Below the pieces are notes generated by a model. It was not told where the DNA came from and did no database searches. It worked only from the letters and a program-made list of their open reading frames with translations. From assembly GCA_022841625.1 (NCBI GenBank), contig JALHRD010000002.1, positions 62,001 through 126,000 on the forward strand: DNA of 64,000 bases. The letters run 5' to 3'. How positions within the stretch are numbered: the first letter of the stretch is position 1; each line of letters opens with the position of its first letter. The DNA is from Xanthobacteraceae bacterium. GTDB lineage: Bacteria; Pseudomonadota; Alphaproteobacteria; Rhizobiales; Xanthobacteraceae. Of this stretch, positions 8,408-32,875 are shown in pieces. The translations under genes and the position numbers were made by a program.

Positions 8408-10996
8408 GTGACCAACCTTGAACGTATGACAGCGGCGGCCTTGCCTGAGCCGTTTGCACGCTGGTTCGCGCAGCGCGGCTGGCAACCGCGCGCGCACCAG
8501 CTCGAGTTACTTGCGAAAGCGTGCGCCGGCCGCTCGGCCCTGCTGATTGCGCCAACAGGTGCGGGCAAAACACTGGCCGGTTTCCTGCCGACGCTGGTGG
8601 AGTTGAGCGAGAATCCTCGCAGCCTGCTCCGTCCACCCTCGCCCGCAAGGGGAGAGGGTACCGGAGCGCGCGGCTCGGGGCGCGAGCTTATCTCCACCGG
8701 CTATGCGGCGCGCCGCGCGGGCTGGCTGCACACGCTCTACATCTCGCCCTTGAAAGCGCTCGCGGTCGACATCGCGCGCAATCTCGAAACGCCGCTCGCC
8801 GAAATGAATTTGCCAATCCGGGTTGAGACCCGCACCGGCGATACGCCGGCTTCGAAACGCCAGCGACAGCGCCGCGACCCGCCGCATGTTCTGCTGACAA
8901 CGCCGGAGCAATTGGCGCTGATCCTGGCGTCCGCCGACGCACCTTTCCTGTTCGGCTCGCTGCGCCGGGTAGTGCTCGATGAATTGCACGCGCTGGTGAC
9001 ATCCAAGCGCGGCGACCTGTTGTCGCTCGGACTGGCGCGGCTGTTCGCGCTGGCGCCGGACCTGACCGCGGTTGGGCTCTCGGCCACGGTCGCGGAGCCT
9101 GACGATCTGCGCCGCTATCTGATGCCGCAACGACAGGGTGTGCCCGTGCTCGCCGACCTGGTGATCGCCGCGGACGGTGCGCCGCCGCAGGTCTCCATGC
9201 TTGACACCGCCGAGCGCCTGCCGTGGGCCGGGCACTCCGCGCGGCACGCCATCGCCGAGGTCTACGACCTTATCAAGTGCAACAAGACCACGCTGGTATT
9301 CGTCAATACCCGCAGCCAGGCCGAGACGATTTTCCAGGTGCTTTGGGGCATCAATGACGACAATCTCGCAATTGCACTGCATCACGGCTCGCTCGATGTC
9401 GCGCAGCGCCGCAAGGTCGAGGACGCAATGGCATCGGGCCGGCTGCGCGCGGTGGTATGCACATCGTCGCTCGATCTTGGAGTCGATTGGGGCGCCGTCG
9501 ATCTGGTGATCAATGTCGGCGCGCCCAAGGGCGCCTCGCGGCTCCTGCAGCGCATTGGTCGCGCCAACCACCGCATGGATGAGCCGTCGCGTGGCGTGTT
9601 GATCCCGGCAAATCGCTTCGAGGTGTTGGAATGCAGCGCCGCGCTCGATGCGATCGCCGCCAAGGCGCAGGATACCCCGCCGGCGCGGGTTGGTGCGCTT
9701 GACGTGCTGGCGCAGCACATTCTCGGCTGCGCTTGCGGCGGACCGTTCTTCGCCGATGAGCTTTACGCCGAGGTGCTGACCGCGGCGCCTTATGCCGAAC
9801 TGGCCCGCGCCGATTTTGACGCAGCGCTCGATTTCGTGGCGACTGGCGGCTATGTGCTCAAGGCCTATGAACGATTCGCCAAGATTCGGCAGGGCAAGGA
9901 CGGCGGCTGGCGGGTCGCGCATCCGAGCGTCGCGCAGCGTTATCGCATGAATGTCGGCACCATCGTTGAAGCCGACATGCTGAAGGTGCGGCTGGTGCGC
10001 TCGCGCGCTTCGAAGCTGATTCCGCGCGGCGGCCGGCTGCTGGGAGAGGTTGAGGAATATTTCATCGAAACGCTCAGCCCCGGCGACGCTTTCGTGTTCG
10101 CGGGCGAGGTGCTGCGCTATGAGGCGCTGGTCGAGAACGAGGTTTACGTCTCACGCGCCAGCGCCGAAGATCCGATTGTGCCGTCTTATGAGGGCGGCAA
10201 GTTTCCGCTCTCGACCTATCTGGCCGATCGGGTGCGACAGATCGTGGCCGACAAGAACCAGTGGCAGGCCTTACCTGCTCAAGTCCGTGAGTGGCTCGAG
10301 ATCCAGAGCTGGCGCTCGCTGTTGCCCGGCCGGCGCGATCTCCTGGTCGAAACCTTTCCGCGCGCCAACAAATACTACCTGGTCTGCTATCCGTTTGAAG
10401 GACGATTGGCGCATCAAACGCTCGGCATGCTGCTCACGCGGCGGTTCGAGCGCGCGCGGTTGCGTCCGATGGGTTTCGTCGCCAACGAATACGCGCTGGC
10501 GATATGGGGGCTCGGCGATGCCGCTGCGCAAATCGCCGGTGGTGCGTTATCGCTGGCAGCGCTATTCGACCAGGACATGTTAGGCGACGACCTGGAAGCT
10601 TGGCTCGCCGAATCCATGTTGATGAAACGAACGTTTCGGAATTGCGCGATTATCGCTGGCCTGATTGAACGGCGCTTTCCCGGTCAGGAGAAATCGCGCC
10701 GTGCGGTGACGATTTCGACCGACCTGGTTTACGACGTTCTGCGCAAGCACCAGGGCGACCATATTTTATTGCGCGCGGCGCGCGCCGACGCCGCCAGCGG
10801 ATTGCTCGACATCCGCCGTTTGGGCGAGATGCTCTCGCGCATCAAAGGCCGAATCGTGCATAAAGCGCTCGATCACATTTCGCCGTTGGCCGTGCCGGTG
10901 ATGCTGGAGATCGGCCGTGAGATGGTCTACGGCGAGGCGTCCGAGGAACTGCTGCGTGAGGCTGAGGCGGAACTCGTGAAGGAGGCAATGCAATGA
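8408..10996 (+). CDS. Ligase-associated DEXH-box DNA helicase (Lhr-like)
   Basis: An 862-residue superfamily 2 helicase of the ligase-associated DNA damage response group. Motif I is APTGAGKTLAG (about residue 48), motif Ia YISPLKALAVD, motif II DELH, motif III LSATV, motif V/VI region SSLDLGVDWG and QRIGRANHR. The C-terminal third has the Lhr-type winged-helix and DUF4968-like regions. The start is GTG at 8408, three bases after the methyltransferase stop. Between motifs I and Ia there is an unusual low-complexity insert, about residues 74-98, that coincides with a DNA palindrome (see the repeat at 8635). Its stop overlaps pdeM by four bases. Confidence 0.94.
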   Translation: MTNLERMTAAALPEPFARWFAQRGWQPRAHQLELLAKACAGRSALLIAPTGAGKTLAGFLPTLVELSENPRSLLRPPSPARGEGTGARGSGRELISTGYAARRAGWLHTLYISPLKALAVDIARNLETPLAEMNLPIRVETRTGDTPASKRQRQRRDPPHVLLTTPEQLALILASADAPFLFGSLRRVVLDELHALVTSKRGDLLSLGLARLFALAPDLTAVGLSATVAEPDDLRRYLMPQRQGVPVLADLVIAADGAPPQVSMLDTAERLPWAGHSARHAIAEVYDLIKCNKTTLVFVNTRSQAETIFQVLWGINDDNLAIALHHGSLDVAQRRKVEDAMASGRLRAVVCTSSLDLGVDWGAVDLVINVGAPKGASRLLQRIGRANHRMDEPSRGVLIPANRFEVLECSAALDAIAAKAQDTPPARVGALDVLAQHILGCACGGPFFADELYAEVLTAAPYAELARADFDAALDFVATGGYVLKAYERFAKIRQGKDGGWRVAHPSVAQRYRMNVGTIVEADMLKVRLVRSRASKLIPRGGRLLGEVEEYFIETLSPGDAFVFAGEVLRYEALVENEVYVSRASAEDPIVPSYEGGKFPLSTYLADRVRQIVADKNQWQALPAQVREWLEIQSWRSLLPGRRDLLVETFPRANKYYLVCYPFEGRLAHQTLGMLLTRRFERARLRPMGFVANEYALAIWGLGDAAAQIAGGALSLAALFDQDMLGDDLEAWLAESMLMKRTFRNCAIIAGLIERRFPGQEKSRRAVTISTDLVYDVLRKHQGDHILLRAARADAASGLLDIRRLGEMLSRIKGRIVHKALDHISPLAVPVMLEIGREMVYGEASEELLREAEAELVKEAMQ
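8635..8659. repeat. Palindromic repeat inserted in frame in the helicase gene
   Basis: A 25-base imperfect hairpin whose apex is CCGCAAG, with stem CCCTC and GAGGG and two internal mismatches. It resembles the perfect hairpin at 31183, sharing the C-rich arm, the GCAAG apex and the G-rich arm. Here it is read through as coding sequence and yields PPSPARGEG in a loop between helicase motifs I and Ia. The bases that follow (to about 8700) may be part of a longer element. Confidence 0.65.
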
Positions 10997-11709
10997 CCGG
11001 TCTGGCGGCACGTCTGCTTGCAGCGAGTGGCGGCGATGTCGCGGTCGCCGGCGTTGCGCTGGTCGCCGACTGCGCCGGCGCGCTCTACTGGCCCGACCGG
11101 GCGCTGCTGGCGGTGGCCGACCTGCACCTTGAAAAGGGTTCGAGTTACGCCACCCGTGGCGTGCTGCTGCCACCCTATGACACCGCGGCAACGCTGGCGC
11201 GACTTGGCAGCTTGATCGCGCGTTACGCACCGCGCATGGTGATCGCGCTTGGTGACAGTTTTCACGACGACGGCGGCACCGCACGCGTGTCGATCGACGA
11301 TCGGGCGATGCTCGGCGCGCTGCAGCGCGGCCGTGACTGGGTCTGGATTGCCGGCAATCACGATCCCACGCCGGTCCATGGGCTGGGAGGCTCCTCGGCG
11401 GCCATGGTCAAGGTCGGCCCGATCGTCTTCCGTCATGCGCCGGAGCGTGGGGCGGCTGCCGGCGAGATTGCCGGTCATCTGCATCCGCTGGCGCGGGTCA
11501 GCGGACGCGGACGTACGGTATCGCGCCGCTGCTTTGCCGCCGACGGCAAGCGCATGGTGATGCCGGCATTTGGTGCCTATGCCGGCGGGCTCAATATTCG
11601 CGACCGCGCCTTTATGGATGTATTCGGCGGCGTCAAATTCACCGCCCATATGCTGGGTGAGGGGCGAATCTATGCGATTGCGGCGCAACGCTGCCTGCGC
11701 GGTGTCTGA
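10993..11709 (+). CDS. pdeM: Ligase-associated DNA damage response endonuclease PdeM
   Basis: A 238-residue calcineurin-like metallophosphoesterase. The metal-binding motifs are all present in order: ADLHLEK (about residue 37), GDSFHDDGG (about 80), GNHDPTP (about 119), and GHLHP (about 160). PdeM proteins are encoded with the DEXH helicase, an ATP-dependent ligase and an MBL-fold exonuclease, and are thought to act together in repair. The start overlaps the helicase stop by four bases (ATGA), so the two are coupled. The ligase and exonuclease of the usual set are not in this window. Confidence 0.92.
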   Translation: MTGLAARLLAASGGDVAVAGVALVADCAGALYWPDRALLAVADLHLEKGSSYATRGVLLPPYDTAATLARLGSLIARYAPRMVIALGDSFHDDGGTARVSIDDRAMLGALQRGRDWVWIAGNHDPTPVHGLGGSSAAMVKVGPIVFRHAPERGAAAGEIAGHLHPLARVSGRGRTVSRRCFAADGKRMVMPAFGAYAGGLNIRDRAFMDVFGGVKFTAHMLGEGRIYAIAAQRCLRGV

Positions 11710-29859: not shown

Positions 29860-30299
29860 AATGCCTCAATCTTTCACGCGTCTTGCCCCTCGAATTGTCT
29901 TGGGGAACTGCTGGGGACCGCCCCAGGGCAGCGGGTCGGACCGAATCACCGCGGGTCGACCTGCGCGGCGACCGCAAGAAGGGGTCACCGGTTCTTAGGG
30001 CGGTAAAATAGCCCATTGTGGCGGACAATGGGAACCCCAGACGCACGGCTGCAAGGCATCGCCCGCCGCGCCATGCCCGGACGCCAAATATCGCATGGGA
30101 ACTCGGCGCAAGATGCATTGCGACCGGGCCGGAATTGTGGTTTTGAGTGCCTGGGAATCCCCAAAGGTTCCTGTCTGCACCTGACGAGGAGCCGCCTATC
30201 GTGGGCGTCACACCCGGCGGCGTGTCGTATCCGGGGGTATTGGCCTCAGCGACTTGCACGCCCAGGCTTTGCAGGCATGACGGCTTCATCGAAGGAGCG
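29860..30299. other. Intergenic region before coxB
   Basis: A 440-base gap between divergent ialB and coxB. An 8-base perfect inverted repeat CCCATTGT/ACAATGGG with a GGCGG loop lies at 30012-30032. An open frame from 30147 joins the coxB frame but its leader shows no homology or signal peptide. No promoter could be assigned with confidence. Confidence 0.5.
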
Positions 30300-31178
30300 A
30301 TGACGACGATGCTGGTGTTCAAGCGGCTTGCCGCCCTGGCGGTTACGATCGGTGCCATTCTGGTGGGTGCAGGGGTGGCTATGGCAGGTGACGGGCAGCC
30401 GTCACCATGGCAGTTGGGCTTCCAACAGTCGGCCAGCCCGGTAATGGACCGGATCAACGAGTTCCACACACTCGTGCTCTACATCATCATCGCGATCTCG
30501 CTGTTCGTGCTCGCGCTGCTGCTGATCATCATGGTGCGGTTCAACGCGCGGGCCAATCCGACGCCGTCGCGCACGACCCACCACACCGGCTTGGAGGTCG
30601 CCTGGACCCTGATCCCGGTGGTCATTCTGGTGCTGATTGCGATCCCGTCGTTCCGGCTGTTGTTTTATCAGCTCAACATTCCCGCGATGAGCGCGGAGCA
30701 GGGCGACGTCACCATCAAGGCGGTGGGCAAGCAGTGGTTCTGGACCTACAGCTACCCTGACCATGGCAATTTTGAATTCGATTCGCTGATGGTTCGCGAT
30801 CCCAAGCAATTGCGGCCCGACCAGCCGCGGCTGCTGGGCGTCGACAACGAGCTGGTGGTGCCGGTCAACAAGAATGTCCGCGTCATCACCACTGGTGCCG
30901 ATGTGATCCACGCGTTCGCGGTGCCGGCGTTCGGCATCAAAATCGATTCGATCCCGGGTCGCATCAACGAGACTTGGTTCCGCGCCACCCGCGAAGGCAT
31001 CTATTACGGGCAGTGCTCGGAACTCTGCGGCAAGGATCACGCGTATATGCCGATCGCGGTCCGCGTCGTCAGCGAGGACCGCTTCAAGGCCTGGCTTGAG
31101 GGCGCGCGCAAGAAATTCGCGCGCGAGGACGCAATCCCAGCCACGGTGGCAACGGCGGAACAATCGATCGCGCGCTGA
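30300..31178 (+). CDS. coxB: Cytochrome c oxidase subunit II
   Basis: A 292-residue subunit of the aa3-type oxidase carrying the CuA electron-entry site. It has a signal peptide (residues about 5-29), two membrane helices (about 58-80 and 101-120) and a periplasmic cupredoxin domain with the aromatic VGKQWFWTYSYPD and the CuA ligands in GQCSELCGKDHAYM. The start is the ATG at 30300 directly after GAAGGAG (spacing is short; an ATG at 30309 is possible). It opens the cox operon: coxB-coxA-ctaB-coxF-ctaG-coxC. A strong palindrome lies between it and coxA. Confidence 0.96.
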   Translation: MTTMLVFKRLAALAVTIGAILVGAGVAMAGDGQPSPWQLGFQQSASPVMDRINEFHTLVLYIIIAISLFVLALLLIIMVRFNARANPTPSRTTHHTGLEVAWTLIPVVILVLIAIPSFRLLFYQLNIPAMSAEQGDVTIKAVGKQWFWTYSYPDHGNFEFDSLMVRDPKQLRPDQPRLLGVDNELVVPVNKNVRVITTGADVIHAFAVPAFGIKIDSIPGRINETWFRATREGIYYGQCSELCGKDHAYMPIAVRVVSEDRFKAWLEGARKKFAREDAIPATVATAEQSIAR

Positions 31179-31182
31179 ACGA

Positions 31183-31230
31183 CCCCCTCCCTTACCCTCC
31201 CCCGCAAGCGGGGGAGGGTAAGGGAGGGGG
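31183..31230. repeat. Perfect 23-base inverted repeat between coxB and coxA
   Basis: Two 23-base arms, perfectly complementary, separated by only AA: the left arm starts CCCCCTCCC and ends CCCGC, and the right arm mirrors it. No T-run follows, so it is not a typical rho-independent terminator. It lies five bases after the coxB stop. The core, with apex CCGCAAGCGG, is related to the element in the helicase gene at 8635. Confidence 0.9.
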
Positions 31231-31240
31231 CAGGCGGTAA

Positions 31241-32875
<1,635 letters not shown>

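Follow-up and report, generated by a model that had tools for sequence, protein, structure and literature searches.

The insert and its host gene

A short palindrome lies in frame within a helicase gene of the 64,000-nucleotide stretch of Xanthobacteraceae DNA analysed here (hereafter the window; Table 1), raising the question of how such a sequence came to occupy a conserved coding region. The initial annotation had described an unbroken reading frame carrying a C-rich/G-rich hairpin, translated as PPSPARGEG and placed between motifs I and Ia where homologues vary in length, and this description holds: the frame runs uninterrupted from a GTG start, and the loop that contains the hairpin ranges from 13 to 145 residues among orthologues. 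The hairpin has 10-bp arms with a single G/A mismatch around a GCAAG apex, and is lengthened by outer arms, GCTCCG at 8626-8631 and CGGAGC at 8662-8667, which pair as well. Its region is translated as ...RPPSPARGEGTGARG..., flanked by GAGKT (motif I) and HTLYISPLK (motif Ia).

Table 1. Features of the helicase locus and of the related intergenic palindrome (window coordinates)
Feature	Position	Strand	Basis
Ligase-associated (Lhr-type) DEXH helicase host gene, 862 aa	8408..10996	+	TIGR04121, 1111 bits; AlphaFold model vs 5V9X, Z 39
Motif I-Ia loop, recurrent insertion site, 141 nt, ~residues 62-108	8591..8731	+	Extraction from 151 orthologues; pLDDT <50 at 75-102
Whole insert (inferred), ~48 nt = 16 codons, edges approximate	8631..8678	+	Loop-length difference; tail like repeat copy L207
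Hairpin with outer pairing GCTCCG/CGGAGC	8626..8667	+	Predicted fold; GACGGAG-like outer tail common to other copies
Palindrome ACCCTCGCCC-GCAAG-GGGAGAGGGT, in frame as PSPARGEG	8635..8659	+	Sequence, inverted repeat, genome copies elsewhere
Related intergenic palindrome, coxB-coxA, with mirror third arm	31183..31234		Pattern match, arm comparison, fold

From its sequence, the host gene encodes an intact ligase-associated helicase of the Lhr type, its TIGR04121 score lying well above the cut-off of 850 bits. An AlphaFold model built with an alignment of 36 orthologue sequences as input (mean pLDDT 78) matches the Lhr protein of M. smegmatis over 696 residues; an alignment-free model, with a mean pLDDT of 37, was set aside in favour of this one. 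In the model, the motif I helix spans residues 54-68 and the motif Ia strand residues 109-112, and the low-scoring residues between them, in an otherwise good model, are predicted to form a disordered loop. In Mycobacterium Lhr, the corresponding stretch is short, with only some 8 residues separating the aligned blocks. Outside the loop, helicase genes have dN/dS values of 0.03-0.09, so the host gene is under purifying selection. A search of plasmids returned distant helicases only. The helicase stop is overlapped by 4 bases by a second ORF (10993-11709) which, judged by eye, resembles the metallophosphoesterase usual beside such helicases.

The window's loop has 47 residues, as against 31 in orthologues without a palindrome. 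When repeat copies are aligned, similarity extends beyond the stem into a 3' tail, and the insert is thus put at about 48 nt, or 16 codons, equal to the difference in loop length. Its edges are approximate because the short loop diverges fast and a clean empty site was found in none of the orthologues compared.

A dispersed repeat family

As a bare stem, the hairpin is unexceptional: owing to the one G/A mismatch its score of 7 falls inside the null range (95th percentile 8), the RNA fold has a z of -1.97, and a search of the window against Rfam gave no match. What takes it beyond chance is its membership of a repeat family. Pattern searches and sequence stretches from the window genome yielded the copies considered here; CYCTCNCC-N4-12-GGNGAGRG occurs at 42 sites in that genome (reversed-pattern control, 0), many of them inverted pairs some 100-140 bp apart, whereas the helicase copy is single. 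The helicase 24-mer, with up to 3 mismatches allowed, has an expected count of 0 in the window, and a 33-nt pattern for the subfamily recovers the helicase copy plus four others in the genome (control, 0). The helicase hairpin thus belongs to a dispersed family, which we detected in 294 of 297 Xanthobacteraceae genomes. Among the window genome's own hairpins, 34 of 37 are free of stop codons in all six frames, compared with 43% of random 23-mers; owing to its C/G-rich composition, the stem is nearly stop-free however it is read.

The hairpin between coxB and coxA, to which the helicase copy had been likened, belongs to this broad family too, yet to a different subfamily: its third arm is a mirror arm and its perfect stem is longer. 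It is intergenic (31195-31218, between ORFs 30147-31178 and 31265-32875), its stem is long and near-perfect with mirror-symmetric G-rich arms (fold z -7.6), and it is a candidate triplex motif.

We found no transposase linked to the family in the window genome. Y1_Tnp genes occur there at two loci, and the 3.3-kb stretches around them contain no copies of the repeat, leaving a RAYT unsupported as the mobiliser.

Copies in other genes

The helicase is not the only conserved gene of this genome to carry a copy. In leuS, two hairpins lie in frame at approximately residues 445-485, immediately after the editing domain; here an inverted palindrome pair (L190:2464-2587, contig C13) adds about 48 in-frame residues to leucyl-tRNA synthetase. 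Further in-frame copies are found in the linkers of dihydrolipoamide acetyltransferase and an indolepyruvate oxidoreductase, in the C-terminal tail of UvrB, in an acetate-CoA ligase-like protein and possibly in a Y-family polymerase-like protein, in its C-terminal part. We did not count as genes several ORFs over copies (L188, L192, L196, L198, L203, L204 and L205), which have no family match, nor did we treat as in-gene the copies close to pheT, to an SDR gene, to a TctC-like gene and to a substrate-binding protein, since their positions are at the likely start or upstream of it. These further copies in coding regions, together with the 42 sites and the orthologues described below whose short loops contain no insert, support the claim that a repeat family has invaded coding sequence here while keeping it open. 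The leuS site is not a hotspot, since among 60 genomes its insert occurs only in the window genome and in one relative, G001.

A third, triplex-type arm is present in 6 of the 37 own-genome copies. Five of these six (L191:2467, L199:5260, L200:2463, L013:1501 and L190:2464) are inside conserved genes, as against about 3 of the 31 copies without the arm, a comparison made post hoc and on small numbers.

Recurrent palindromes in the helicase loop

The helicase is present in 247 of the 297 sampled genomes of the family, which were assigned to Xanthobacteraceae through named relatives, and its motif I-Ia loop is long in around 30% of these orthologues. The match is broken at or near the loop in 78 of the 247; in 75 of these the gene was refound together with its downstream piece, and no internal stops occur among the places listed for these long-loop genes. 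We examined 151 distinct loops, a sample deliberately enriched for long ones. Two rows (L104 and L121), whose sequence was very short or badly placed, were left out of the analysis. Loop lengths fall into two groups, 13-47 residues, mostly without a palindrome, and 54-145 residues, mostly with. Most of the long loops carry from one to four palindromes, single or as inverted pairs, from several unrelated subfamilies (among them ACCTCTCCCCGC-NN-GCGGGGAGAGGT, CCCTCCCCCGCTTGCGGGGGAGGG, CCCTCCCCCCTTGNGGGGGAGGG and ACCTCCCCCTGAAAGGGGGAGGT), and the frame is always open. Stems of at least 9 pairs are found in 49 of the 151 loops, and the 95 hairpins in loops correspond to 4.3 per kb, a 26-fold excess over the 0.17 per kb in the rest of the gene. 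The frame in which the palindromes are read differs between genomes, giving PSPARGEG, LSPLAGRGR or LPRLRGRVGEG. Alignment of orthologues confirms that the insert is absent where the loop is short, and in the outgroups Mesorhizobium, Kaistia, Labrys and Rhizobium loops of 17-24 residues contain no palindrome. Two loops from genus g65, of 145 and 128 residues (L142 and L144), are low-complexity, A/P/S-rich and devoid of strong palindromes; these are perhaps decayed inserts.

On a helicase tree built without the loop, the presence or absence of the insert (138 labelled genes, 62 inserted, from the long-loop-enriched sample) requires a minimum of 31 changes, a figure that includes losses, does not polarise the direction of change and depends on labels that are uncertain for short or decayed inserts. 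An earlier count of 38 was dropped in favour of stricter labels, as it accepted any C-rich arm and was too noisy. Many genera contain both states, and near-identical sister genes differ in the insert (L086/L149, L116/L152, L036/L161 and L119/L158). Among members of the window's genus, G000 (the window genome) has a single palindrome of one type, G001 and G003 have a pair of another type, and G004 has none. The subfamily in the G001 and G003 loops has 40 matches in G001 and 30 in G003 but a single one in the window genome; conversely, the 33-nt pattern of the window copy has 5 matches at home, 0 in G001 and 2 in G003. With the first subfamily abundant at home but nearly absent from the window genome, and the window's subfamily nearly absent from G001 and G003, the loop copies reflect the repeats of their own genome.

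Relationship to described repeats

On sequence grounds, the closest described family is BoxC/PIT/TM_ECO, the intrastrand-triplex palindromes known from E. coli and from other proteobacteria (Holder et al. 2015, PMC4666352), of whose arms the first two match. The published elements consist of a C-rich arm CCCTCNCCC, a loop of 3-6 nt and a G-rich arm GGGNGAGGG, and the window copy reads CCCTCGCCC-GCAAG-GGGAGAGGG at 8636-8658; E. coli 'mm' copies share its G/A mismatch, and the elements are likewise dispersed and multicopy, several of them forming inverted pairs with roughly 100 bp between the members (PMC4666352). The window copy differs in lacking a second G-rich GGGNGAGGG arm after a 3-nt linker, the arm that would form the triplex: there are 2-3 mismatches in 9 on either side, and a strict triplex pattern has 1 match in G000 as against 46 in G001. 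It also lies in a coding gene, whereas the copies in the published account are placed relative to neighbouring ORFs and in intergenic DNA (PMC4666352).

Other families appear further removed. GTAG/CGTC REPs occur in frame within genes of many bacteria, often DNA repair genes (Di Nocera et al. 2013, PMC3733652), and resemble the present case in being short palindromes in repair and tRNA synthetase genes, tolerated in loops and linkers; they have even been found at about the same site of recB in two Xanthomonas species (PMC3733652). The window copy, however, has no GTAG tag at either end. Set against the CGTC consensus (terminal CGTC, a stem of 8-9 bp starting with AT pairs, a 4-5 nt loop and a CCA tail), it has CGTC at 8630-8633, one base off the stem, and the loop of 5 and the first A-T pair fit, but the second pair and the tail do not. 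The RPEs of Rickettsia, to which the initial annotation had pointed, are also in-frame palindromes within conserved genes whose proteins are presumably functional, but by their published descriptions they are longer, at 105-146 bp (PMC2229807, a review) as against about 48 nt; a link to RPEs as a family is not supported, the sequence matching the BoxC type instead. Br-REP1 and Br-REP2 of Bradyrhizobium are dispersed palindromes from the same bacterial family, but have an unrelated consensus and are described from intergenic regions (PMC5082802). In-frame intragenic REPs are thus catalogued in many bacteria, so that the remark that such elements are not commonly described in this group calls for qualification. 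What appears undescribed is recurrence in one loop across a family: it is unreported for GTAG/CGTC REPs in the consulted part of Di Nocera et al. (PMC3733652), and our search of the open-licence literature turned up no account of BoxC-type copies within coding genes and none of a single loop struck family-wide.

How palindromes may come to occupy the loop

We consider it probable that a REP-like element of the BoxC/TM type enters genes widely and that the helicase loop repeatedly tolerates in-frame copies. The repeats would copy themselves, or be copied, into many sites of Xanthobacteraceae genomes, and a single copy would have entered the window's helicase in frame and lengthened a disordered surface loop by about 16 residues. 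Copies within genes would survive only if the frame is kept and the protein tolerates additional residues at that place, and a near stop-free stem would help them to do so. The loop may be so tolerant that differing subfamilies from each genome's own repeats landed and were lost repeatedly, with conversion of resident copies, favoured by the reported instability of triplex motifs, probably adding to the turnover. We infer that copies arrive by insertion, that tolerance, not targeting, explains the hotspot and that the insert leaves the protein's function unaffected; the loop looks like a place where selfish DNA can land safely.

A different history, possible but doubtful, is that one ancestral palindrome entered the loop early and that later variety arose by gene conversion, deletion and structure-driven instability, with no fresh insertions. 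Triplex-forming palindromes have been reported as marks of unstable loci (PMC4666352), and in genera such as g28 nearly every member has similar paired palindromes, as expected of inheritance within a genus. However, unrelated subfamilies in close relatives (the window against G001 and G003, and several types in g26) track each genome's own repeats, outgroups and many deep lineages have short, palindrome-free loops, and conversion still requires a resident copy of related sequence. We regard it as unlikely that BoxC/triplex-type repeats in Xanthobacteraceae truly prefer this loop as a target, or that the loop is for them an unstable site that renews itself; if either were so, selfish palindromes would be continually remodelling a single loop in a DNA-repair protein throughout the family. 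Targeting in the narrower sense, with the loop DNA preferred by a transposase or a replication-linked process, is improbable. The proportion of genomes struck here far exceeds that at the leuS site, and in many genomes the flanking LVEL and STG codons form an inverted repeat (GGTGGAG/CTCCACC); yet loops without STG are also struck, the position of insertion within the loop varies, and linkers of other genes are hit too, as tolerance predicts.

Selection on the protein offers another account, in which the palindrome is a by-product of the codon composition of a functional, flexible, P/G/E/R-rich loop. All orthologues have some loop and the STG segment is widely conserved, but the palindromes are near-identical in DNA to intergenic copies and are read in differing frames, loop length varies greatly, and the paired insert evolves much faster at the protein level than the gene does (dN 0.16, dS 0.32); we consider this account very improbable. 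A chance hairpin in a GC-rich gene, which the stem score and fold z alone would allow, is hardly credible when the sequence matches dispersed copies and the loops of relatives are full of them.

With repeated, tolerated entry as the preferred reading, the locus amounts to an experiment, replicated by nature, in how repeats find their way into proteins: one loop in a conserved host gene, dozens of gains or losses and several repeat families. In-frame insertion of palindromes, described for GTAG/CGTC REPs and RPEs, would thereby extend to the BoxC/triplex type, and close sister genomes make testable both the spread of palindromes without a known transposase and the distinction between targeted and tolerated sites.

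G001 and G003 each carry a further inverted pair from the subfamily seen in their helicase loops, some 2.7 kb upstream of the insert in the helicase (G001:C146:153147-153216 and G003:C14:20401-20470).
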